This document shows positions 1,338 to 30,276 of a DNA stretch of 45,179 nt, one piece after another (within the stretch, counting starts at the first letter, position 1; each line of letters opens with the position of its first letter). The notes under the pieces are model-generated. The model searched no databases. It was not told the origin of the DNA and was given only the letters and a program-made list of their open reading frames with translations. Position numbers and translations under genes: made by a program. The DNA is from a virus: IMG/VR virus record IMGVR_UViG_3300036863_000017, positions 1 through 45,179 of that record. One strand, written 5' to 3'.

Positions 1338-1871
1338 ATGTGTTTACCAGATTTTAAAGAATTTAAGCAAATACCAGAAAATAGTCCTTTAATTGGCTAT
1401 CGAACTTGGAAAACTTCTGTTAGGGATGATAGTTATTTGCTCAAATCAGAATTTCAAGATTATCATTGGAATAAACTAGAGGGACCACATGAAGTATTAA
1501 AAGTAAATTCTGGCATATACGCTTATAATAATTATTATAATTATTATAATAATTATAATAATAATTATTATAATTATTATAATAATAATAATTATAATAA
1601 TAATTATTATAATTATTATAATAATAATAATTATTATAATTATTTAGCCGGAATTATTCATCAATGGGGCAAGACAGCTATTCACTCAATGGGACAACGA
1701 AGTGAATATGCCAAAATAGATACTTTATTCTCTATCAGAAAATTAGATGCAAAAGGTCCAAAAGAATTTTTGGACTGGACTAAAATTTTCAACGAGAAAA
1801 TAAATAAAATTGCAGAATTTTATGGAGCCAAGGTAATTACATGGCAGGACTTTATTGGAATTAATAAATAA
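1338..1871 (+). CDS. Conserved phage protein interrupted by a Tyr/Asn-only tract
   Basis: 177 residues. The N-terminal part (LIGYRTWK, then GPHEVLK and GIYAY) and the C-terminal part (AGIIHQWGKTAIHSMGQRSEYAKI) follow the order seen in a widespread phage protein of unknown function, with G-Y/F-R-x-W, GIYAY and WG...H..G.R.EYA motifs. Between GIYA and the WG motif, residues 63-102 are only Tyr and Asn, encoded by TAT and AAT codons (1524-1643). In relatives, as I remember them, this is a short linker. Its stop overlaps the next start (TAATG). Function unknown. Confidence 0.75.
   Translation: MCLPDFKEFKQIPENSPLIGYRTWKTSVRDDSYLLKSEFQDYHWNKLEGPHEVLKVNSGIYAYNNYYNYYNNYNNNYYNYYNNNNYNNNYYNYYNNNNYYNYLAGIIHQWGKTAIHSMGQRSEYAKIDTLFSIRKLDAKGPKEFLDWTKIFNEKINKIAEFYGAKVITWQDFIGINK
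1524..1643 (+). repeat. A/T-only codon tract (40 TAT/AAT codons)
   Basis: 120 consecutive bases are A or T only, and read in frame as 40 codons that are all TAT or AAT. Units such as TAATAATTATTATAAT recur with irregular phase, as expected of a replication-slippage microsatellite. The tract lengthens the linker of the host gene without breaking its frame. Confidence 0.95.
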
Positions 1872-2812: not shown

Positions 2813-3007
2813 ATGATAAGAGAAACTATTATCACCGTAGAATTTGAAATGCCAACAAAAGAGTGTGAACCAACAGATATTTCAATGTCATACTGTTCAA
2901 CACATAAGCAACAGATGGCATCCTGTTGGCAAATGGCAAAAGGAAATTTGTGCTCAGCATGTAAAGAATGGCATCGTAAAGATTTTAACTGCCAAAAGAA
3001 GAATTAA
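2813..3007 (+). CDS. Small Cys/His-rich protein
   Basis: 64 residues with CSTH, C, CSAC, H and C in the last 40 residues, a plausible zinc site. It starts 4 nt after the preceding gene and ends 3 nt before the SprT-SNF2 gene, inside one tightly packed operon. Function not recognised. Confidence 0.65.
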   Translation: MIRETIITVEFEMPTKECEPTDISMSYCSTHKQQMASCWQMAKGNLCSACKEWHRKDFNCQKKN

Positions 3008-3010
3008 ATC

Positions 3011-5152
3011 ATGACAAGAGAACAAGCCGCAAATTTTTTGCGAAAAGAATTAGATTTACACGGATTAAATGATTGGCATATTAGAATAACAGCAGTTGAT
3101 AAAGGCTTTCTTGGCCTTTGTTCATACAAGGACAAATGTATTATCATAAATGCCCATCATATCGATATTCATTCAGACCCTGATTTAATGAATACAATAC
3201 GGCATGAAGTAGCACATGCTATAGTTGGCCCTACACATGGACATAATGAAGTATGGGCATCTAAAGCTAAAGAGATTGGCTGCGATAATACTGCACCATG
3301 TTCAAATTTGATGTTATCACCTGATGTAATAGATGCCATTAGGTCAGGCGCGGATGTTCAGGTTACATATGAGACAGAAGTAATACGCAGACCTAAATAT
3401 GAAATTACACGGCTTCAAGACAAATGCGACTTTTGTGGTAAAGTAGCCAAATCAAAATCTGAAAAGTTAATAGAGAATGATGACCCATTCAAACCTAACA
3501 TTAAGATGTTAATATTAGAATGCGGTCATACTCTTATTAAACGTATTCCAAAAGGAACACCATTTCAGACCCTTGTAAGTGATAACGATGAAGAATTAGT
3601 TAAAAGTTGTAAGCATGAGTTCAATAAGAATATTTGCCTAAACTGTGGCAAATACAGACCATTTCCATTTCAAGTAGAAGGTATGCAATTTGTTGAACAG
3701 GCACTAGCAATAAATAAAGGTGCCGCGATATTTGATGAAATGGGATTAGGTAAGACCATCCAAGCACTAGGTTATCTCAGATTTCATCCCGAAGCATTCC
3801 CTGTTCTATACGTGGTAAAATCTGCTATTAAGTTTCAATGGTTTAAGCAGATATTAACATGGATGGGACCAGAATACATGCCACAAATCATATCAGGGTC
3901 AAATGACTACCTGATTCCAGGACTAAAAGGTTACATTATTTCCTATGATATTGTGGTTCCTAAGACTCGCAAGTCGAAAAATGGAAAAGAAATCAAACAA
4001 GGATTTGACATTAAGAAATTTGATGGTCTAATAAAGACCGTCATATTGGACGAGTGCCAACAAATCAAGAATCCAGATTCAACGAGAACACAACAAATCA
4101 GACGGATAGTAAAGGATAAAAACGTAATTGCTCTGTCAGGCACACCTTGGAAAAATAGGGGTTCTGAATTTTTTAGCGTGTTGAATATGCTCGCGCCCAT
4201 CAAATTCTATTCATACGAAGCCTATATCAGACAATGGGTGGACAGATGGATGGAAGGAAATAGATGTAAAGAAGGTGGAATACGTAGTCCAGAAAGATTT
4301 AAGGAATACATTAAAGATATTGCACTACGCCGTGAAATATCAGATGTAGCAATTGAAATGCCTGATGTTACGAGAACACCATTTCATTGTAATTTAGACG
4401 ATTTGGAACAAGATACATATGATGATGCAGAAGGTGAATTTGTCAAATGGTATAATGACTTAGTAATAGGTGGTGATGAAGAAAAGCTAACAGGTATGCA
4501 AATTTTAGCTAAACTCTCCCGTATGAGACACATTATGGGATTAGCTAAAATACCTGCTACAGTTGAATTTGCCGAAGAATTTTTTGAGGAAACAGACCGT
4601 AAGCTCTGTATCTTTTTTCATCATAAAGATGTTGGAGAAATATTGTATCAACAGTTTCAAGAAAAATTCGGTAAAGATATTCCTGTAATGAAGTTGACAG
4701 CAGAATTAAATGACTTAGAACGATTTGAGATGCAAGAAAGATTTAATAAACATCCACGCGCATTTATGATTGCATCTACCCTAGCAAGTGGAGAGGGAAT
4801 TAATTTACAAACATGTAGTGATGCAATATTACATGAAAGACAATGGAATCCTCAAAATGAGGACCAAGCTGCTCCGGGTAGATTTAGAAGGATTGGCGCA
4901 AGAACTGACATTCCTGTATCGGTTACATATATCTTAGCAGAAGGAACAGTAGATACCATATTACACGGAATAGTAGAAAGGAAAAGAGTTTATTTCCATA
5001 AAGGAATGAATAAAGGTGAAGCACTTCCTTGGAACGAGAATGATTTTGCAAAGGATATGGCTGAACAGATTGTAAAAAGATGGCGAGAAAAGAATAAGAA
5101 CAAAGTCAAAGTAGAAGGAAAAAAGACTATAGGGGAAATATTACAAGTATGA
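3011..5152 (+). CDS. SprT-like metalloprotease fused to SNF2 helicase
   Basis: 713 residues. Residues 1-90 are SprT-like: HEVAH at 65-69 with a third His at 76-78, the zincin pattern of SprT/Spartan proteins. Residues 139-213 carry Cys pairs (CDFC; C...H; CLNC) typical of the zinc knuckles before phage SNF2 helicases. The helicase core follows, with GLGKT at 245-249 (Walker A), DECQ at 347-350 (Walker B), SGTPW at about 376, and a C-terminal lobe with GEGINLQ and an arginine-rich motif VI (GRFRRIGAR). SNF2 proteins are ATP-driven DNA translocases. The fusion suggests removal of DNA-bound protein during replication or repair, which is inference. Confidence 0.9.
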   Translation: MTREQAANFLRKELDLHGLNDWHIRITAVDKGFLGLCSYKDKCIIINAHHIDIHSDPDLMNTIRHEVAHAIVGPTHGHNEVWASKAKEIGCDNTAPCSNLMLSPDVIDAIRSGADVQVTYETEVIRRPKYEITRLQDKCDFCGKVAKSKSEKLIENDDPFKPNIKMLILECGHTLIKRIPKGTPFQTLVSDNDEELVKSCKHEFNKNICLNCGKYRPFPFQVEGMQFVEQALAINKGAAIFDEMGLGKTIQALGYLRFHPEAFPVLYVVKSAIKFQWFKQILTWMGPEYMPQIISGSNDYLIPGLKGYIISYDIVVPKTRKSKNGKEIKQGFDIKKFDGLIKTVILDECQQIKNPDSTRTQQIRRIVKDKNVIALSGTPWKNRGSEFFSVLNMLAPIKFYSYEAYIRQWVDRWMEGNRCKEGGIRSPERFKEYIKDIALRREISDVAIEMPDVTRTPFHCNLDDLEQDTYDDAEGEFVKWYNDLVIGGDEEKLTGMQILAKLSRMRHIMGLAKIPATVEFAEEFFEETDRKLCIFFHHKDVGEILYQQFQEKFGKDIPVMKLTAELNDLERFEMQERFNKHPRAFMIASTLASGEGINLQTCSDAILHERQWNPQNEDQAAPGRFRRIGARTDIPVSVTYILAEGTVDTILHGIVERKRVYFHKGMNKGEALPWNENDFAKDMAEQIVKRWREKNKNKVKVEGKKTIGEILQV

Positions 5153-5319
5153 TTATGACAACAAATGAGTTAGTTGCGAAACTAGAAATATGGCGCCAAG
5201 AAAATTTACTTGAAAATGAATTAATCAAGATGGCGATAACTAGATTAGAAGAACAAAATTCTAAAATAGAAACATTGGAAGATATTATAGCTCGCTTAGA
5301 AGAAGAAGAATATGACTAA
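5149..5319 (+). CDS. Small acidic helical protein (56 aa)
   Basis: ATG at 5149 overlaps the helicase stop by 4 nt (ATGA). A second in-frame ATG follows two codons later. The sequence is nearly all helix-forming, Leu/Glu-rich with regular heptads (LVAKLEIWRQ to IIARLEEEE), suggesting a coiled coil. It ends inside the start of the next gene. Function unknown. Confidence 0.6.
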   Translation: MIMTTNELVAKLEIWRQENLLENELIKMAITRLEEQNSKIETLEDIIARLEEEEYD

Positions 5320-5539
5320 AATAAAGAAAATTAAATTTCGAGATGAAGAATATTGGCTAGTCCCATCAGATTTTTGTGAAGGAAATATATGTCCTTTAGA
5401 CCAGTTTACAGAGGATGGAGAAATGTTAGCTAATCCATTTCGTGATATATCTTATGCAATAATTGAAGATGGTGGAAAGATAATGAGATTTGGCCAACAA
5501 ATAGGAACAATCAAAGATATAGAGGAAATAAATGAATAA
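5312..5539 (+). CDS. Hypothetical protein (75 aa)
   Basis: 75 residues, overlapping the upstream gene by 8 nt and the next gene by 8 nt. AAGAAGAAGAA upstream may act as a ribosome-binding site. No family is recognised; the composition is that of a small globular protein. Confidence 0.6.
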   Translation: MTKIKKIKFRDEEYWLVPSDFCEGNICPLDQFTEDGEMLANPFRDISYAIIEDGGKIMRFGQQIGTIKDIEEINE

Positions 5540-5774
5540 CTACGAAGAAATAATCACTAGAATAGTAAATTCATCGCAAGGAATCAAAGGAGTTGATTTA
5601 AGTTTAAAAGTGATGGAAGAAATTAATCCACATAAGTTTTCCATTGAAGAATACAATAAAGCACTTGATGAACTAACTAAAACTAATCAAATCCTAGAGA
5701 TAGAATATATACTACCTCAAATGGATTATAGAATCAAGTCATTTTTCTTACCATCAGGAACTGAGCTACCATGA
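5532..5774 (+). CDS. Hypothetical protein, winged-helix-like (80 aa)
   Basis: 80 residues. The order helix, helix, helix and terminal beta hairpin (EEYNKALDELTKTNQILEIEY, then YRIKSFFLPS) is like a winged-helix fold, suggested only by this pattern. It lies in an unbroken run of overlapping early genes. Confidence 0.6.
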   Translation: MNNYEEIITRIVNSSQGIKGVDLSLKVMEEINPHKFSIEEYNKALDELTKTNQILEIEYILPQMDYRIKSFFLPSGTELP

Positions 5775-5914
5775 AGATAGGAATAGCAATTATTAAGACC
5801 AATATACTAGATGGAATAGAAGTAAATAGTGAAATTTGTTTAGAAGATGATACAATGTTTTCTCTAATAAGAGCTTGTAGAAAATTTGGGTTTAAGGATT
5901 TGATAAAAGAATGA
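5771..5914 (+). CDS. Small hypothetical protein (47 aa)
   Basis: An ATGA overlap at both ends (start 5771 with the upstream stop, stop 5912-5914 with the next start) supports this short frame: MKIGIAIIKTN to RKFGFKDLIKE. Not recognised. Confidence 0.6.
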   Translation: MKIGIAIIKTNILDGIEVNSEICLEDDTMFSLIRACRKFGFKDLIKE

Positions 5915-6882
5915 CTGAGATACTAATACCAAAAAAGAATATTATACTAGATAGTCAAATATTCACTACACTACAGGCTTGCCCACGTTTGTCTGATTTT
6001 ACATTCAATCATAATTTAGTTACTTTAGATGGCAAGTCTAATTCACTTGAAGTAGGTTCACTGGTTCATAAGGTAATGGAAGTCTACAATAGGTCTATTA
6101 TTAATGGCATCAAACGGGACGAAGCAATTGGACATGCACTTATAGCTGGCGAAATATATATTCATGGCTGCAAGTATTGTGCTAATTTTACTTCAGAAAA
6201 TGGAAATAAACCAGAGTGCGGACATCAACCAGACGAATATCCCGGCTTAAAGAATACACCACAAGTAATTGATAAGAATAATCCATTGGAGAAGTACAAA
6301 GTAGGTTGGAAATGGGCATTAGAAACTTGTGAACAATACTTCGATTTTTGGAAAAATGATTCATGGATTCCACTTGAGGTTGAAATAACCAAAGGAGAAA
6401 TATTATATGAAGATGACGAAATTAGAATATTATGGAAGGCAAAGTTTGATAAGATTGTAGATACAAATCAAGGAATCTATCCTATTGATTATAAGACAAT
6501 GAAACAAAATAGAGATACGTTATCTCTAAATAATCAATTTAAAGGTCAATGTCTTTTGGCTAAGACTAGACAAATATGGATTGATAAGATTGGATTTCAA
6601 ACTACATTGGAACCAAAAGATAAGTTCAAGAGAGTTCCAATATCATATTCTGCTGACCAATTACTAGAATGGCAATCACAAGAATTACCTTTCTATGCAA
6701 AAATGATGTTGATGTATAATGAAGTAGGATACTGGCCTCCAAACTATACTCATTGTGAAAACAAATATGGTAAGTGTTTATACTATGAAGATGTATGTAG
6801 AGCAGATAGGGGAATGAGAGAAGAAGAACTTAAATTGCATTTCAAAGTAGGAAAGAAATGGGATATAGGGGATGAAGAATGA
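5911..6882 (+). CDS. PD-(D/E)XK nuclease, Cas4/RecB-like
   Basis: 323 residues. GSLVH (49-53), an acidic residue D180 in KAKFD, and D193-Y-K195 are the ordered motifs of the PD-(D/E)XK nuclease superfamily. C24 near the N-terminus and C282, C289, C296 near the C-terminus are placed as in Cas4/AddB-type nucleases, where four cysteines hold an iron-sulfur cluster. An internal Cys/His insert lies at about 87-104. Such enzymes resect DNA ends. Next to a Sak4-like ATPase and an SSB-like protein, this suggests a phage recombination module. Confidence 0.85.
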   Translation: MTEILIPKKNIILDSQIFTTLQACPRLSDFTFNHNLVTLDGKSNSLEVGSLVHKVMEVYNRSIINGIKRDEAIGHALIAGEIYIHGCKYCANFTSENGNKPECGHQPDEYPGLKNTPQVIDKNNPLEKYKVGWKWALETCEQYFDFWKNDSWIPLEVEITKGEILYEDDEIRILWKAKFDKIVDTNQGIYPIDYKTMKQNRDTLSLNNQFKGQCLLAKTRQIWIDKIGFQTTLEPKDKFKRVPISYSADQLLEWQSQELPFYAKMMLMYNEVGYWPPNYTHCENKYGKCLYYEDVCRADRGMREEELKLHFKVGKKWDIGDEE

Positions 6883-7088
6883 AAATAACTGAAGTAATAA
6901 TTACCATAGAACCAAATGAATCTGAAATAACAAGTGGATTTAAGAAAATACTTTTGATGAGAAATTCACATAAGATATGGAATGTACAAGAGGGTGATGT
7001 TTTCAGAGGATTATTTCCAAGTGAAATAAGATTAGCAAATTTTATTCAAGAAAATGTAATATATAAGTATAATACTAGAGGAGAATAA
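6879..7088 (+). CDS. Hypothetical protein (69 aa)
   Basis: 69 residues between the nuclease and the ATPase, overlapping the first by 4 nt and the second by 1 nt. No recognised motif. Its position inside the recombination module suggests it is expressed together with these genes, nothing more. Confidence 0.6.
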   Translation: MKITEVIITIEPNESEITSGFKKILLMRNSHKIWNVQEGDVFRGLFPSEIRLANFIQENVIYKYNTRGE

Positions 7089-9234: not shown

Positions 9235-9405
9235 ATGCCATCACATCCTGATAGGGTAAGACGTAATTATTGTGAACATGAATTTAAAGTTATTCAGGGT
9301 GTGACTGTATCTGACATGATTAAATTTGCATTTTATTGTGTCAAATGTGGTTTCATAGGCAAGTCTTGGTTTCCTGGTATAGATAAAGAACCAGTAAATG
9401 ACTAA
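9235..9405 (+). CDS. Small zinc-ribbon protein (56 aa)
   Basis: ATG at 9235, stop overlapping the polymerase start by 8 nt. Cys and His at YCEH and CVKC make a four-ligand zinc site in 56 residues. It sits immediately before the UDG-polymerase gene, so it is probably translated together with it. Role unknown. Confidence 0.65.
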   Translation: MPSHPDRVRRNYCEHEFKVIQGVTVSDMIKFAFYCVKCGFIGKSWFPGIDKEPVND

Positions 9406-11083
9406 AAAATATGTCCCAGGAATGGGTAATGCCGGGGCAAAATTAATGTTCTTAGGCGAAGCCCCATCATATGATGAAACCATTACAGGTAAACCATTCA
9501 CAGGACCATCTGGTAGGGAATTAGATAAGTTATGTAAAGATTCAGGAATAAATAGAAATGAAGGATGGGTATCAAATGTATTCAAATATGAAATACCATC
9601 TAATCCGAAAGGTAAGAAAATTCCGGCTTGGATTCGCGCGAAGAATATTGGCATTAATGTCGAGGAATCATTAAGTGAATTACAAAATGAAATTAATGCT
9701 ATTAAGCCAAATTGTATATTGGCTCTTGGTGGTACTGCTCTTTGGGCTATTACTGGGAAAACCAAGATTACTAATTATCGTGGTTCTATTATGTTGGGTA
9801 TGGGCCGCAAATGTGTGCCTACTTATCATCCTGCGCACCTATTACATCAAGAAGGAGAAATCAAAGGATATTGGAACAGATATATAATGATATTTGACTT
9901 CAAACGGGCCTATCAACAAAGTAAGTTTGAAGAACTAGTATTACCTCAGAGAACACTTCAAATTTGCAAATCTTCATATGACTTACATGCATTTTATGAA
10001 AGATACAAACATCTGGAAAAAGTTTCCGTGGATATTGAAGCTGGCGGTAGTTGTATTCCTATTTGCATTGGGCTTGCATTTAATAAATCACATGGGTTAT
10101 GCATTCCTTTATGGAGTAACGATGGGATTAGTAATATACCAGATACTGATATGGTCCAAGTGTGGATTAAATTAGCTGAAATATTACAAAGTCATGGAAT
10201 CATAGGACAAAATTTCAATTATGATAAAGATAAAATCAAAAAATTGGGATTTACTATAAAGAAACTAGTGTCTGACACTATGTTAAAGGCATTTGCCATT
10301 AACCCAGAACTTCCTAAAAGACTTGCCTTCAATCAAAGTATATATACTGAGGAACCTTTCTATAAAGATGAAGGAATGTATGAGGGGAAACTAGAAGAAC
10401 TATTTTTAGGCTGTGCGCGAGATGCGTGTGTTACATATGAAGTTGATGAAGGCATGGACCCTGATTTAGATGAATTAGGCCAGAGAGATTTTTATGAAAA
10501 CTTCCTTATGAAATTACCTGAATTTTATGGTGAAATGGAAAATACTGGATTTGGACAAGACATAGTAGTTAGAGATAGATTGATACATAAGTATGTCGAA
10601 TGGGATGAGAAACTTAAATATGAATTATTCAAATTAACTAATCAAGAAGTCAATTGTAATTCACCTAAACAAGTATATTCTCTACTTTTTGATACATTAA
10701 AATGTCCTGTTCGTAGAGGAACTGGTGAGGAAGAACTTACCTCACTTTTAAATCTACAATCTTTTACAGACCAAGATAAAAGAAGAATTGTAGAAATCAT
10801 ACTTGAAGATAGGAGAGTTCGTAAAACATTATCAACTTACTTAATGGCATTACCAGATTTCGATGGAAGAATGCGAACCACATTTTTTCCTTGTTTAGAG
10901 ACTGGACGTAGTTCAACAGGACAACAAGACCCACCTATTAGACCTGTAATGGATGTTAAAACTGGTAAGTTTACTGGTAAGAAGAAAAAAGGACAGAACT
11001 ACAAGGCATTGGGAATGGCATTTCAAACTATGACGAAACATGGTGATATTGGTGCGGATATAAGGGAGATGTTTATTCCATGA
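9398..11083 (+). CDS. UDG-DNA polymerase A, N-terminal half (split gene)
   Basis: 561 residues. Residues 1-170 are a family 4-type uracil-DNA glycosylase domain (GEAP at 20-23, PFTGPSGRE, PTYHPAH at 141-147). Residues 205-350 are a 3'-5' exonuclease, with D212 and E214 (exo I), QNFNYD (exo II) and RDACVTYEV at 341-349 (exo III). The thumb and start of the palm follow. The frame stops right after DIREMFIP, the segment that directly precedes polymerase motif A in family A enzymes. The remainder is encoded at 12024-12968. UDG-polymerase fusions are known in phages such as SPO1. Confidence 0.9.
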   Translation: MTKKYVPGMGNAGAKLMFLGEAPSYDETITGKPFTGPSGRELDKLCKDSGINRNEGWVSNVFKYEIPSNPKGKKIPAWIRAKNIGINVEESLSELQNEINAIKPNCILALGGTALWAITGKTKITNYRGSIMLGMGRKCVPTYHPAHLLHQEGEIKGYWNRYIMIFDFKRAYQQSKFEELVLPQRTLQICKSSYDLHAFYERYKHLEKVSVDIEAGGSCIPICIGLAFNKSHGLCIPLWSNDGISNIPDTDMVQVWIKLAEILQSHGIIGQNFNYDKDKIKKLGFTIKKLVSDTMLKAFAINPELPKRLAFNQSIYTEEPFYKDEGMYEGKLEELFLGCARDACVTYEVDEGMDPDLDELGQRDFYENFLMKLPEFYGEMENTGFGQDIVVRDRLIHKYVEWDEKLKYELFKLTNQEVNCNSPKQVYSLLFDTLKCPVRRGTGEEELTSLLNLQSFTDQDKRRIVEIILEDRRVRKTLSTYLMALPDFDGRMRTTFFPCLETGRSSTGQQDPPIRPVMDVKTGKFTGKKKKGQNYKALGMAFQTMTKHGDIGADIREMFIP

Positions 11084-11253
11084 CTGTGAAAGAACTTATC
11101 AGAAAACTTGAAGGATTACAATGTGATGATTGGAAAATTATAGCTCATTGTTATCCTGATTGGGAAGGACCAGATTTTCTAGCGGAAATTGAATCTCTTG
11201 AACTAGATGAAAATCATAATCAAATTATTATTGAGCTGGATTTACCTTCATGA
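11080..11253 (+). CDS. Small hypothetical protein inside polymerase split (57 aa)
   Basis: First of five small genes between the polymerase halves. ATG at 11080 overlaps the polymerase stop by 4 nt, and its own stop overlaps the next ATG. The sequence (MTVKELIRKLEGLQCDDWKI to IIIELDLPS) looks like a small alpha/beta protein. Short phage proteins of the form VxELIxxLxxxPxDxxV are common; their function is unknown. Confidence 0.65.
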   Translation: MTVKELIRKLEGLQCDDWKIIAHCYPDWEGPDFLAEIESLELDENHNQIIIELDLPS

Positions 11254-11504
11254 ATCGTAGGGAACTATTAAAGTTAGTTGGATTAGGAGTAGTTAATCAT
11301 ACTCTCGATTTAGATAAATTACTATGGATTCCCGGTCAAAAGAAAATATTTATTCCTTCTGGTAAGGAATTAAGTTTATTAGGTATTCCCTACCATATCA
11401 GTGATTGTTCAATGGGAGCATGGCTAGGAATACGACGCAATCAAAATGCTATGAATGAATTAGTAAATCTTATAAGAATAATGGAGAAAAATAAAATAAG
11501 ATGA
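11250..11504 (+). CDS. Capsid-segment-like small protein with RR leader
   Basis: 84 residues. Residues 43-63 (LLGIPYHISDCSMGAWLGIRR) match residues 227-247 of the major capsid protein encoded at 29026-30276 (LFGVPYHHSNASTGTWLGFSR form) at 12 of 21 positions. The N-terminus MNRRELLKLVGLGVV has a twin-arginine-like start followed by a hydrophobic stretch, and a similar start is seen at 15726. WIPGQKKIFIPSG precedes the capsid-like part. Related short phage proteins exist as far as I recall, with unknown function. It is translationally coupled within the polymerase split. Confidence 0.7.
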   Translation: MNRRELLKLVGLGVVNHTLDLDKLLWIPGQKKIFIPSGKELSLLGIPYHISDCSMGAWLGIRRNQNAMNELVNLIRIMEKNKIR

Positions 11505-11662
11505 GTTTAACAAGACAACAATGGATAGAATTATGGAATCACGTATGCAATATAGAACATGCAGCTAAATTCTTAAAATCACCACCTACTAAACAGACTA
11601 TTCTATGGGAAGTAAAGAAGATTAAGGAAATGATTGAATCTGTGATAGGACAAATGGAATGA
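11501..11662 (+). CDS. Small conserved phage protein (53 aa)
   Basis: Starts by ATGA overlap with the upstream gene. MSLTRQQWIELWNHVCNIE and ILWEVKKIKEMIESVIGQME form two amphipathic helices. Short helical proteins of this pattern recur in phage early regions, with no known role. Confidence 0.65.
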   Translation: MSLTRQQWIELWNHVCNIEHAAKFLKSPPTKQTILWEVKKIKEMIESVIGQME

Positions 11663-11817
11663 TTTTTCATTTATTACATGATTGGCACGCAACTGGCAAT
11701 GAAGAAACTAGACATGGAATGGACTACTTCTGCAATGAAAAAGCTGAATTATGGATTGAGCGAAAATGTTGTGTTTGTAACAAAATAAAATGGTTCAAAT
11801 ATAAATTTGGAATATAA
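11659..11817 (+). CDS. Small Cys/His protein (52 aa)
   Basis: ATGA overlap with the upstream gene. HDWH, a Cys and CCVC near the end may form a metal site. The stop lies inside the start region of the next frame. Fourth gene of the cassette that divides the polymerase. Confidence 0.55.
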   Translation: MIFHLLHDWHATGNEETRHGMDYFCNEKAELWIERKCCVCNKIKWFKYKFGI

Positions 11818-12031
11818 AACGACCACAGAAGAATTAAGAAGAAAATTTAATAATGAATTTAGATTAAGTAAATGGCCTGCAACATATGAGGTAGATTCTG
11901 AAACATATGCTAATGTATGTCAAACAATATTTGAATGGGCTGGGGATTTAGGTTTGGTCAAAATAGCAATTGGACCTAATAATGGAATTATGTTCAAAAA
12001 CGTAGAATTAATACTTAAGAAAAATGACTAA
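11807..12031 (+). CDS. Hypothetical protein with TTG start (74 aa)
   Basis: The frame begins with TTG at 11807 because no ATG is available before the conserved-looking part (TEELRRKFNNEFRLSKWPATY). Residues 20-65 (YEVDSETYANVCQTIFEW to IGPNNGIMFKNVEL) look like a real folded small domain. It overlaps the upstream gene by 11 nt and the C-terminal polymerase gene by 8 nt, so translation may be coupled. Confidence 0.65.
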   Translation: MEYKTTTEELRRKFNNEFRLSKWPATYEVDSETYANVCQTIFEWAGDLGLVKIAIGPNNGIMFKNVELILKKND

Positions 12032-12968
12032 TAAATTAGTCTTTATACAAGCAGACAGTAGCCAAGCGGAATCAAGAGTAGTTTTTTTACTAGCCAATGA
12101 CGAACAAGCATTAAAGGATATAGATGAACATGACTATCATGCACTTACTGCATCGTGGTTTTTCGGCGGTAGTGAAAATGATTATAGTAAAAAGATACTT
12201 GGCTATGAATCACCGATTAGGTTTGCAGGGAAAACTTTACGACATGCGGGCCATCTTGGAGCTGGAAAACGTAGAGCAGCAACTGAACTCAATACCCAAG
12301 CAAGGAAGTATAAAATATCTATTCAAATTAATGAGGCTATCGCTGAACGTGCATTAAAAATATTTCATACTAAACAACCTAAAATTCAACAGGTATTCCA
12401 TTTTGAAGTAATCAATTCTCTCAAGATTAATAGGCGACTAGTCGCGCCAGTTCCATATGGCATTAACTCAAAAATAGGAGGTATCCGAACCTTTTATGAA
12501 AGATGGTCAGATGAATTATTTAGGCAAGCATTTAGTTATTTACCTCAGAGAGCAGTGACAGATAATACAAAGGCTTCAGGACTAAGAATAAAGAAATTAA
12601 TTCCTCAAATTAAAATTTACTTAGAAGCACATGATGCCTTACTTTTTGGAGCACCTGAGAATCAGGTCGAGGAATGGTCTGAAATAATTAAATATGAATT
12701 TGAAAGGCCAATTAGATTTGAAAACTGTAGTTTAAGTAGACGTGATTTAATCATACCATGTGAAATTGAAATAGGAGATAATTATCGTCAGTTAAAAAAG
12801 TTCAGTAGAGATATTCCAATTATTAGACCACCTATTATTGAACCTGAATTAGTTCCAGTAAGTATAACAGAAAAATACACTGTTATAGATTTACCTGAAG
12901 ATTCAAAGAAAGATAGTATAATTTATTATGCCAATGAAATACGAGATAGTATTAACAATCCGGAATGA
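12024..12968 (+). CDS. DNA polymerase A, C-terminal half (split gene)
   Basis: 314 residues. KLVFIQADSSQAESRVV carries motif A with catalytic D11. Residues 66-82 (RFAGKTLRHAGHLGAGK) are motif B (O-helix), and H203-D204 in EAHDALLF is motif C. All three catalytic motifs are intact. The sequence starts where the upstream half ends, with only about three extra residues (MTN). The two halves therefore together make one full family A polymerase and probably assemble as two chains. No intein or splice motif was seen. Confidence 0.9.
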   Translation: MTNKLVFIQADSSQAESRVVFLLANDEQALKDIDEHDYHALTASWFFGGSENDYSKKILGYESPIRFAGKTLRHAGHLGAGKRRAATELNTQARKYKISIQINEAIAERALKIFHTKQPKIQQVFHFEVINSLKINRRLVAPVPYGINSKIGGIRTFYERWSDELFRQAFSYLPQRAVTDNTKASGLRIKKLIPQIKIYLEAHDALLFGAPENQVEEWSEIIKYEFERPIRFENCSLSRRDLIIPCEIEIGDNYRQLKKFSRDIPIIRPPIIEPELVPVSITEKYTVIDLPEDSKKDSIIYYANEIRDSINNPE

Positions 12969-13270: not shown

Positions 13271-14525
13271 TGAATTTGAATCTCCTTTATCTTTCTGGAA
13301 ATGGAGTGCATTAGCTGCTATTTCAGCAGTAGTTAAGGACCAAGTATGGCTACCTAGATACTTATATAATTTATATCCTAATGTATATGTTATGTTACAT
13401 GCAGAAAGTGGATTGAAAAAAGGTCCACCTGTATCTATGGCTGCGCGCTTGGTTTCTACTATTAATAATACAAAAGTAATACAAGGTAGAAGTTCAATAC
13501 AAGGTATATTAAAAGAATTAGGCACAGCACAAACAGTTCCGGGTGGAAAAATTACTAGTCAATCAACGGCTTTCATTTGTAGTTCAGAGTTAACATCAAG
13601 TATTGTAGATGACCCTGTAGCGGCTAAAATATTAACGGACTTATATGATAGACAATATAGATTTGGTGATTGGGCATCATTACTTAAGATGGAAAGTTTC
13701 AAGTTAAATAATCCTACTATTACAATGCTTACTGCAACTAACGAGGCCATGTCAGAAGATTTTTTCGATAAGAGTGCAATTCAAGGTGGTTATTTTGCGC
13801 GCACTTTTATTATATATGAGAAGGAGGAAAACCGCTCAAATGCTTTAATGGTTCCACCTAAATTAATTCCTGATTATAAAGAACTTGCAAATTATCTACG
13901 TGAGTTAGTTAAGCTAAAAGGTCAATTTCAGGAATTAGGAAGTAGAGAAGAAAGTGATATTTATACGGAGGAATATAAAGATAGAAAGACAGATGAGATA
14001 GGTTACTTAACTCCCGCTGGAGCTATATATCAGAATTGGTATGATGATTTTAAAGCAGTTCTTAAGGAACAACAAGTCAAGGATAATACTGGTACGCTGA
14101 ATCGCTTCGGCGATAGCGTATTAAAAGTTGCAATGTTACTTTCATTAGCCAAATGTCCTAATCTAATGATACATGAAGAATCAATGTCAGAGGCTATTTC
14201 TGTATGTGAAAAGTTAATAGGTAATGTTAGACGCGCGACGATGGGTAAACAGGGTATGTCGGATAGTAGTCCAGTAAAAAATCACATCATACATGAATTA
14301 CTAAATAGAGAAACTCATTCAATTAGTCAAGTTATGTTAATGAAAAAAATGTGGATGCATTATTCTACAGTAGAAGAATTTGCTGATATAATGCAATCTT
14401 TTGAAGCTGCTGGTATGATTAAAACTAGTAATATTGGTAATCAGATTATTTACGAAATGGAACCTAAAGTTGTGAAGGAATTGAAAGATTTTCTAGATGG
14501 AAAAAATAAAAATGAGAAAAGTTAA
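13236..14525 (+). CDS. DUF3987-like helicase/primase-type protein
   Basis: 429 residues. The arrangement resembles phage proteins grouped with DUF3987: an early FWKWSALAAISAVVKDQVWL segment, then a P-loop-like HAESGLKKGPPV at about 54-65, then FICSSEL, then a helical C-terminal part. The group is often fused to or placed near primases and helicases. The P-loop is degenerate (no GK[ST]), so activity may differ. It lies after the polymerase, in keeping with a replication role. No separate DnaB-like helicase or TOPRIM primase is visible in the window, so this gene may fill that place. Confidence 0.65.
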   Translation: MTWLTELVSQHSEFESPLSFWKWSALAAISAVVKDQVWLPRYLYNLYPNVYVMLHAESGLKKGPPVSMAARLVSTINNTKVIQGRSSIQGILKELGTAQTVPGGKITSQSTAFICSSELTSSIVDDPVAAKILTDLYDRQYRFGDWASLLKMESFKLNNPTITMLTATNEAMSEDFFDKSAIQGGYFARTFIIYEKEENRSNALMVPPKLIPDYKELANYLRELVKLKGQFQELGSREESDIYTEEYKDRKTDEIGYLTPAGAIYQNWYDDFKAVLKEQQVKDNTGTLNRFGDSVLKVAMLLSLAKCPNLMIHEESMSEAISVCEKLIGNVRRATMGKQGMSDSSPVKNHIIHELLNRETHSISQVMLMKKMWMHYSTVEEFADIMQSFEAAGMIKTSNIGNQIIYEMEPKVVKELKDFLDGKNKNEKS

Positions 14526-15020
14526 AGTATGGAAAGACTTTCCAATGGAAAATCTTGATGGTAAAATTTTCAAAAAATGCACAAGATGTTTAGAAATTAA
14601 GCCTATAGAGGATTTCTATATAGATTTAACAAAATCTAATGGTTATAGACCAATCTGTATTGAATGCACAAAAAAGAAAATGGCAGACTACCGAATAAAT
14701 AATAAGGAAAAAATAAACTTAAAAAGAATAGAAGTATCATATGGATTGACAGAAATTGAATTCAATTTACTTTCCTTAAAACAGAATAACTTATGTGCTA
14801 TATGTAAAAAATCAATGTTAGTTTATCGTGGTGCCCAAATTGACATGACAAAGAAACAGGAGGGGTTCGTGGATTATTATGTATGAATTGTAATGTAGGA
14901 ATAGGAAGTTTAAAACATGATACTGAAATTTTAGCTAATGCGATTGGTTATTTAAATGAAATGCCTGAAAATCAAGTAAAAGAATTACAAGAATTTCTGG
15001 CAGGAAAATCGAGGAGATAA
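14497..15020 (+). pseudogene. Endonuclease VII-like gene broken by 1-nt frameshift
   Basis: 14497-14886 encodes the N-terminal zinc part (CTRC, CIEC) and the start of an endonuclease VII domain (YGLTEIEFNLL, CAICKK), then runs out of frame at GFVDYYV. Adding one C between 14844 and 14845 would give IDHDKETGGVRGLLCMNCN, the HNH/endo VII core, and the frame would continue to TAA at 15018-15020. The lost base removes the catalytic His codon. It may be a real pseudogene, a sequencing error, or a site of recoding; no classical slippery heptamer is visible. Such enzymes resolve branched DNA or act as homing nucleases. Confidence 0.85.
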
Positions 15021-15220: not shown

Positions 15221-15544
15221 ATGATTACATTTGACCCAAATGGCGGAGATTTAGGACGTGCATCTATAACTCATATACATCCACTTGAATTTCATGTAGT
15301 TATTCCACATATAGCTGATATTCTTGAATCATTACATAATATTAAAATATCAACTTTACCATTTAAATATGCATTTGAATTTTCTTCTTACTATAAAGAC
15401 CAAATTTTAATGGAGATAAATACAGCCAAATTACCAGAACATGTTTCATTTTATGAATGTGATGGAAAGAAGTTGTTTGAAATGCGAGGTGCATCTGGTG
15501 GTGTAGTTTCTGGATTAATTTGTTATTTAGTTACGAAGGATTAA
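15221..15544 (+). CDS. Capsid-segment-like protein
   Basis: 107 residues. Residues 4-13 (FDPNGGDLGR) match capsid residues 62-71 (FNPDGGDLGR) at 8 of 10. Residues 76-104 (SFYECDGKKLFEMRGASGGV and on) match capsid residues 363-391 at 16 of 29. The region between does not obviously match. The protein therefore looks like an N-terminal and a C-terminal segment of the phage's own capsid protein joined with most of the middle missing, yet it is encoded in the early region on the opposite strand. Role unknown; capsid-assembly regulation or decoy function are hypotheses. Confidence 0.75.
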   Translation: MITFDPNGGDLGRASITHIHPLEFHVVIPHIADILESLHNIKISTLPFKYAFEFSSYYKDQILMEINTAKLPEHVSFYECDGKKLFEMRGASGGVVSGLICYLVTKD

Positions 15545-29025: not shown

Positions 29026-30276
29026 TTAATAACCAGTAGGTGGAACTAAAGCATCAATATATGCTGTAGCAGCAGGATTTGAAACGAAAGTCTGCATACC
29101 ACATACCATATAAAAGATTTCAGCAGTTGCCACACCACCTGAAGCACCACGAATTTCAAAGATATTTCTTCCATCGGTCTTATAGAAACCAATAGGAAGT
29201 GTCTCACCACGACCCCAAACTTCATCAACAACAAAGTCAATACGTGTATTGTCCCAATTGAAGTGGTCCCTTACACTAGCACCAGCCATTTGCATTTTAT
29301 CGCCAAAATACAAATCTAATGCTTCATCCTTTGCTGTTTTCTGAATCATAATGACAAGCTGCCCAAGTTCTTCATATGCTTGTTTTTGAGCAGGATGCAT
29401 CCATGCAACAGGTTTAAACGTGTTTTCCATTCCAACACGATTTCCTATTTTATTCATTGCTAAACGTGGAAGTGGTAGTGCAAGAGCGGCAGAATTACCA
29501 TTTACACGATTGGAACGAATTTCAGGAGTAGCTGCTCTACTAAAGCCTAACCATGTTCCAGTTGAAGCATTGGAATGATGGTAAGGAACTCCAAATAAAG
29601 CAGGTAGAGAAGTAGGTGAAGAAATACCATTGGTAACAATTCTATCGGTAGCAACTGCACCAGCAATAGCAGGTGTTACATCAATAGACTTGTTTTCAAC
29701 GTCCCATTTGGTAATTACTCCACTACCACGTAAAGTAGCAAAAGTAGTATCAAATACCTGAATGGTTTGACCAAATCTCATTAGGCGCGCACCGAATCCA
29801 TCACTACCTAATGTATATGTATCAACACCACCAGCAGTAGCTACAACAGAAATAGTTCCAATAGCTCCATTTCCTGTCTGCATTAACTGTGAATCAAGCT
29901 GCCGTCTTAATTCATCTAATGCAGTCGCCGTTAAACGTCTTACACCATTTGTAACAGCTTTACGTGGGTCATCAGTAGACCATTGAGTCAGTTTTGTGTA
30001 TTCAATATTTTCTGATACGAATACACTAGTAAGAACTGCTTTATCGAAAGATGGTCCACCACCTCTACCTAAATCACCACCATCAGGATTAAAATACTGG
30101 AAAGAACCACCAGGTCTTAATTCTAATGGAATACGCATTTGTCGATTACTAATTTTCTCAACATCGCGCTTTTTGATATTGGCATAAAACTTGTCATCCC
30201 TTTCAAAAAGAACTCTAATTTTAGGAATAACACGTTCCAATTCTAAGGCTGCGATTTGAGATTCAACTACTGCCAT
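29026..30276 (-). CDS. Major capsid protein
   Basis: 416 residues. N-terminal helix with charged residues, then FQYFNPDGGDLGRGGG (59-74), a central beta domain, LFGVPYHHSNASTGTWLGFS (227-246), and IGFYKTDGRNIFEIRGASGG (362-381) before NPAATAYIDAL near the end. This pattern and its place after a scaffold-like gene fit an HK97-fold major capsid protein of a phage group without a cleaved pro-domain. Segments of it recur in small early ORFs at 11250, 15221 and 15726. Confidence 0.85.
   Translation of the reverse strand: MAVVESQIAALELERVIPKIRVLFERDDKFYANIKKRDVEKISNRQMRIPLELRPGGSFQYFNPDGGDLGRGGGPSFDKAVLTSVFVSENIEYTKLTQWSTDDPRKAVTNGVRRLTATALDELRRQLDSQLMQTGNGAIGTISVVATAGGVDTYTLGSDGFGARLMRFGQTIQVFDTTFATLRGSGVITKWDVENKSIDVTPAIAGAVATDRIVTNGISSPTSLPALFGVPYHHSNASTGTWLGFSRAATPEIRSNRVNGNSAALALPLPRLAMNKIGNRVGMENTFKPVAWMHPAQKQAYEELGQLVIMIQKTAKDEALDLYFGDKMQMAGASVRDHFNWDNTRIDFVVDEVWGRGETLPIGFYKTDGRNIFEIRGASGGVATAEIFYMVCGMQTFVSNPAATAYIDALVPPTGY

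Follow-up and report, generated by a model that had tools for sequence, protein, structure and literature searches.

We analysed a 45,179-nucleotide (nt) stretch of viral DNA, IMG/VR record IMGVR_UViG_3300036863_000017 over its full length (hereafter the window), in which a family A DNA polymerase is encoded in two pieces. This replicative polymerase is very probably made as two working polypeptides from one early operon. The two genes lie on the same strand:

9398-11083, + strand: chain 1, 561 amino acids (aa); UDG-like domain, proofreading exonuclease, thumb and first palm strands (Pfam, PHROG)
12024-12968, + strand: chain 2, 314 aa; motif A, fingers with motif B, motif C (HDA) and remaining palm

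Chain 1 matches the Pfam UDG family (E 5e-20). Within Pfam DNA_pol_A (PF00476; 381 positions), chain 1 covers positions 16–123 and chain 2 positions 151–380, and both pass the curated cut-off of 34.3 bits (42.6 and 38.2 bits, respectively). The 940-nt gap between them is filled by five small overlapping open reading frames (ORFs); each of the first four junctions overlaps by 4 nt (ATGA) and the next by 11 nt, while the last gap ORF (11807-12031) overlaps the start of chain 2 by 8 nt. These coordinates and matches confirm a preliminary description, made from the letters alone, of a family A polymerase split before motif A by a five-gene cassette. The ATG of chain 2 has no clear Shine-Dalgarno sequence, making coupled translation along the operon plausible.

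A second polymerase in the record was considered and rejected. Pfam found no PF00476 match in the 45,179-base record besides the two chains and no match to PF00136 (family B), so that neither a further family A or B polymerase nor membership of the T4-type gp43 group is indicated in the 45 kb; a continuous polymerase gene elsewhere, named earlier as something that would refute the two-chain reading, did not turn up in these searches.

In the arrangement we propose, the UDG-like domain, exonuclease, thumb and first palm strands would come from chain 1, and what remains of the palm, along with the fingers, from chain 2. Both chains would co-fold into an active enzyme without a peptide bond, because the break falls in an insertion-tolerant coil between palm strands.

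Break point and catalytic residues

Chain 1 stops directly after a conserved IP, and chain 2 restarts at MTNKLVFIQAD. In continuous relatives, which are 56–69% identical to chain 1, the IP is followed by a linker of 1–29 residues (mostly 4–5) and then by the motif A strand, as in IP-EPGY-IFVQ. The only sequence missing at the break of the window is a linker of ~4 residues ahead of motif A. In the preliminary description nothing appeared lost; this is right to within the linker, whose ~4 residues are absent. Because position 3 of the chain 2 profile aligns with Taq residue 603, the cut in the window lies 10 residues before the catalytic Asp. Other split members are cut 8–11 residues before it (Asp being residue 9–12 of chain 2, with the L067 row beginning two codons ahead of its ATG). 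The linker reaches 10 or more residues in 26 of the 117 continuous junctions surveyed below.

To place the linker in the fold, we used an AlphaFold model of a continuous relative (L055; 851 aa, 55 sequences), with a predicted local distance difference test score (pLDDT) of 87.1 and a predicted template modelling score (pTM) of 0.84. The linker is modelled as a coil at residues 561–567, between a strand at 559–560 and the motif A strand at 568–575, the numbering being anchored on the conserved R556, F570 and D574. The model matches 4dsj_A (Z 31.4, root-mean-square deviation (rmsd) 3.7, 540 residues aligned) and Klenow 1kfd (Z 30.5, rmsd 3.6, 521 aligned). The predicted fold of this continuous relative is that of Pol I.

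Six residues of chain 2, D11, E16, R66, K70, H203 and D204, are invariant across 26 sequences, in agreement with the earlier view that the catalytic residues are intact. We take D11 to be the motif A Asp, R66 and K70 the motif B Arg and Lys, and H203 and D204 the HD of motif C. The motif B helix, at 12222-12290 (+), reads RFAGKTLRHAGHLG, and motif C reads HDA. The window has Leu in motif B where Pol I has Tyr, and Ala in motif C where Pol I has Glu; the family consensus carries the same Leu and Ala.

Selection acts on both halves. For the split pair L077/L147, the ratio of non-synonymous to synonymous substitution rates (dN/dS, Nei-Gojobori) stands at 0.093 in chain 1 and at 0.087 in chain 2. 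By the same method, other split pairs give 0.12–0.21 and five continuous pairs 0.05–0.17, all with dS near saturation; the pair L067/L075 yielded no value. The low values in split pairs, like those in continuous pairs, indicate that both chains are maintained. Purifying selection on both chains is strong and equal to that on continuous relatives.

Recurrence of the split and turnover of the spacer genes

Seven scans of IMG/VR viral contigs returned 399 loci beyond the window's own record. Both chains were present in 394 of the 400 loci, and the six one-chain loci were excluded, leaving 123 distinct junctions. The same split, looked for in these related genomes, was found at the linker before motif A in six junctions, the window's included; the other 117 are continuous. 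As the loci are the nearest matches of the scans (best 80 each), 6/123 is not a population frequency. The design of the survey is partly blind to splits elsewhere in the gene, and a separate check of the assessable groups (among 122 groups) found no other interruption: chain 1 is open in 120/120 and chain 2 in 113/113. A scan of genome contigs found no relatives, and tblastn of chain 2 against a phage collection returned one distant record. One surveyed record, IMGVR_UViG_3300036851_000016 (62,483 bases), carries two complete UDG-polymerases of the window's family (L061 and L086); either contigs were joined here, or one phage has both polymerases.

The number of small genes in the split spacers is zero, one or five. 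L051, the row most similar to the window (72% over 803 columns), is split without an inserted gene, its stop and start sharing ATGA. Single genes occupy the spacers of L077 (63 aa), L147 (38 aa, with two CxxC pairs), L041/L042 (74 aa, identical in sequence in two contigs) and L067 (65 aa), and these inserts differ from one another. The spacer-free L051 suggests that a split can precede any tenant. The break would then have originated as a stop plus a nearby start within the linker, and small early genes of the phage would later have settled in the new intergenic site; for the window itself, we infer the same order, split first and cassette later.

Phylogenetic trees were built from 119 rows and from a subset of 28 rows hand-chosen from these to include all six split rows; L026 and L028 were left out because their chain 1 is incomplete, that of L028 being frame-broken at ambiguous bases of its record. 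In the 119-row tree, L067 falls within a fully supported group with the continuous L057, L075 and L076, and L041 pairs with the continuous L132 (support 97). A single clade for all six splits was rejected in the 28-row test (p 6.5e-6). The one change listed for the split state (SPLIT) in the 119-row table is counted against the LONG group only, and is no evidence for a single origin. The window, L051, L077 and L147 share CCATGA at the end of chain 1, which hints at one origin for these four. We read the splits as having arisen about three times (two to four). One ancestral split may instead have been rejoined repeatedly, but this requires several exact fusions.

Several results weigh against our interpretation. 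The split form occurs in only a minority of the window's relatives. Chain 2 modelled alone gives a pLDDT of 85.3 and a pTM of 0.77, but a single-chain model says nothing on binding between the chains. The window, L051, L077 and L147 are united at a single fork in the 119-row tree (93), but occupy two places in the 28-row tree, where the window groups with L051 (98) and L077/L147 group with the continuous L043/L044 (96). One clade for these four is not rejected by the 28-row test (p 0.43); their splits may have arisen once or more than once.

The gap of the window holds the following genes, listed with the capsid gene that one of them resembles:

11080-11253, + strand: small gene A, 57 aa; shares ATGA with the end of chain 1 (stop)
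11250-11504, + strand: small gene B, 84 aa; Tat-like N-terminal module and major-capsid-like segment
11501-11662, + strand: small gene C, 53 aa
11659-11817, + strand: small gene D, 52 aa; cysteine-containing
11807-12031, + strand: small gene E, 74 aa; TTG start
29026-30276, - strand: major capsid protein, source of the capsid-like segment of gene B

The N-terminal module of gene B recurs in 19 other junction groups, mostly 2–3 kb upstream of the polymerase, and gene C has homologues in 10 further groups, which lie upstream of the polymerase wherever the position is comparable. Gene E has homologues in the contig of L051 and in L028 (downstream of the polymerase) and in L137 (upstream). The insert of L041 has homologues in two groups, placed elsewhere around the polymerase where a position can be given. 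Among the relative loci compared, no homologue was found for genes A and D or for the inserts of L077, L147 and L067. Judged by these homologues, the cassette is made up of ordinary early phage genes.

Residues 42–63 of gene B resemble residues 226–247 of the major capsid protein encoded in the same record (E 1.7e-4; 20 shuffled capsid controls gave at best E 0.039); the capsid-segment-like gap gene of the preliminary description is real. An ORF at 15221-15544 (+) resembles capsid residues 362–391 (E 5e-7) plus 62–71, and is 54–58% conserved in two relatives. In nine relatives, a gene-B-like gene combines three parts: the Tat-like module (RRxFLKLL), WVPGxKxIFLP and the capsid N-terminus (LELERxxPKI.xLFERDDxFY). 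The ORFs at 11250-11504 and 15221-15544 are putative capsid-mimic early proteins. Elsewhere in the window, an ORF at 1338-1871 (+) contains a long Asn/Tyr run (NYYNYYNNN repeats) in otherwise ordinary sequence.

Distant splits and alternative explanations

Comparable breaks occur in distant phages. MEP401 and MEP402 (OM43 phages, Zobellviridae; OP830906/7) are replicating cultured phages whose family A polymerase, like that of the window, breaks immediately ahead of motif A; a small uncharacterised ORF occupies the gap. In the deposited MEP401 sequence, gp13 ends SPNLQNFDGEIKTLFLSRYGE and gp15 begins MILNAD. We counted 82 loci of this type, MEP401 and MEP402 included and near-copies kept; with four one-chain loci excluded, the polymerase is split just before motif A in 78/78 two-chain loci, with spacers from a 2-nt overlap to 659 nt. 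The split of MEP401 has been published, and its authors suggest an intron (PMC10580990); the accessible part of that article names no break position relative to motif A.

Other phages are cut between PNLQN and motif A; Quill_5.2, a Desulfofustis phage and Mel-JY34 provide continuous comparators. Alcaligenes phage QDWS535 encodes its family A polymerase in two ORFs with a 1-nt overlap. In the Vibrio phages ICP2_2013_A_Haiti, Rostov-5342 and VP41s3, the catalytic Asp is residue 21 of chain 2, and this ICP2-type break lies ~15 residues earlier than that of the MEP401 type. ICP2_2013_A_Haiti has a 9-nt gap, and AAGGA precedes its chain 2 ATG. In ICP2 itself (NC_015158, L492), the locus at 2959-5527 has an HNH gene between the two parts and carries the annotation of a joined DNA polymerase, although the first part ends in a stop and the second has its own ATG. 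In the environmental record MW202796.1 (L495), 3.2 kb separates the polymerase halves (1424-2134 and 5733-6893, both on the - strand), a stretch with seven annotated genes, one of them for a methyltransferase.

Concerning origin only, a homing endonuclease may have made the break and later been lost, leaving the small genes behind. The HNH gene in the ICP2 spacer and T4-type precedents (PMC2988022, in the part available) speak for this, as does the following ORF, about 1.5 kb downstream:

14497-14886, + strand: endonuclease VII-like ORF; PHROG E 6e-14, Pfam below cut-off

This ORF, with a CxxC zinc finger, is probably shortened. The endonuclease VII relic of the preliminary description is thus present, but nothing ties it to the split, since among the loci compared only one relative group has a homologue. 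No spacer read from the window's lineage encodes an endonuclease, contrary to the link suggested earlier; L051 has no spacer at all, and homologues of the small genes occur at other places in the early region. We regard an endonuclease origin as unlikely.

The polymerase might instead be a decaying remnant in a phage relying on the host polymerase, as an essential-looking gene is broken here and UDG-polymerases are intact in most relatives. Against this, the chains are full length and keep their catalytic residues, dN/dS between split members (0.09–0.21) is like that of continuous pairs, and the MEP401 type has the two-chain form as a fixed trait. The conservation of the halves makes decay very unlikely, and we reject it.

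One continuous chain could also be restored if the 940-nt segment were a self-splicing intron, or by protein splicing; an intron was raised by the MEP401 authors (PMC10580990, in the part available), and in the ICP2 record two pieces on either side of an HNH gene are annotated as joined. Across the window, no Rfam hit reached the gathering score; within 10800–12300 there were only two sub-threshold, chance-level matches, neither an intron, so that no group I or II core was seen. No additional intein-like sequence stands at the break in either chain, and a Pfam scan detected no intein domain. The earlier statement that the gap holds no intron, intein or homing endonuclease agrees with these searches. 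In all cases chain 1 has its stop and chain 2 its own ATG. Spacers of zero or few nt (L051, QDWS535 and several MEP401-type loci), unrelated ORFs in the spacers and the 3.2-kb separation in MW202796 argue further against splicing, which we reject as highly improbable. An assembly error or chimeric contig, conceivable for a metagenomic record, has a negligible chance of being the main account and is rejected as such, as splits with different spacers occur in contigs of several other metagenomes and in cultured phages.

The working two-chain polymerase that the preliminary description suggested is therefore the reading we favour on comparative grounds, supported by the same break with different spacers, by selection, by the lack of another family A or B polymerase match in the record and by the fixed MEP401 type.

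Comparison with known systems

The window shares with the MEP401 type a break right before motif A with small ORFs in it. The MEP401 polymerase differs in being an exonuclease-polymerase without the UDG-like domain, and its split is fixed in its group, whereas that of the window's lineage is sporadic. The window's nearest relatives are continuous UDG-polymerases, which does not indicate common descent with the MEP401 type. BLASTP found no significant similarity between the window and MEP401 chains for either chain; therefore, the two lineages most likely split independently. The window polymerase would work like the MEP401 type but is not a member of it.

The split of MEP401 is already known. 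For the recurrence of the split at one loop, we found no description in the open-access literature, and a text search of PMC6302109 and the review PMC8775771 found no mention of split phage polymerases.

We lean towards a wider interpretation, in which the loop before motif A would be a site where family A polymerases break in general, opened independently several times (at least in the window group, in L041 or L067, and in the MEP401 type). The two-chain form would be stably inherited as a two-subunit replicase, and the site would serve as a landing place for small-gene turnover. If so, one of the best-studied enzyme folds does not need a single polypeptide but can form from two chains, translated independently and divided inside the catalytic palm, and evolution picked nearly the same cut in unrelated polymerases. 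Such natural split points would be ready for engineered split polymerases. Annotations calling these genes truncated or intron-containing would be corrected, and virome surveys keyed on full-length family A polymerases would miss or halve them.

Replication enzymes in two pieces are also known from T4-type phages: gp43A/gp43B of Aeromonas phages 25 and 44RR, NrdA of Aeh1 and gp39/gp60 of T4 (reviewed in PMC2988022). According to the available part of that review, gp43A and gp43B of Aeromonas phage 25 co-purify with polymerase activity, and the split NrdA of Aeh1 is active. Unlike the window, these cases, as described there, concern a family B polymerase or other enzymes, are associated with homing endonucleases and have another break point. 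Closer in layout, Caulobacter phage Kuura (OQ067476, L402; 3453-6857) encodes the UDG-exonuclease and the polymerase in different genes, with two small ones in between. Its break lies at the boundary of the exonuclease and polymerase domains, whereas that of the window lies inside the palm; Kuura represents a second natural break point.

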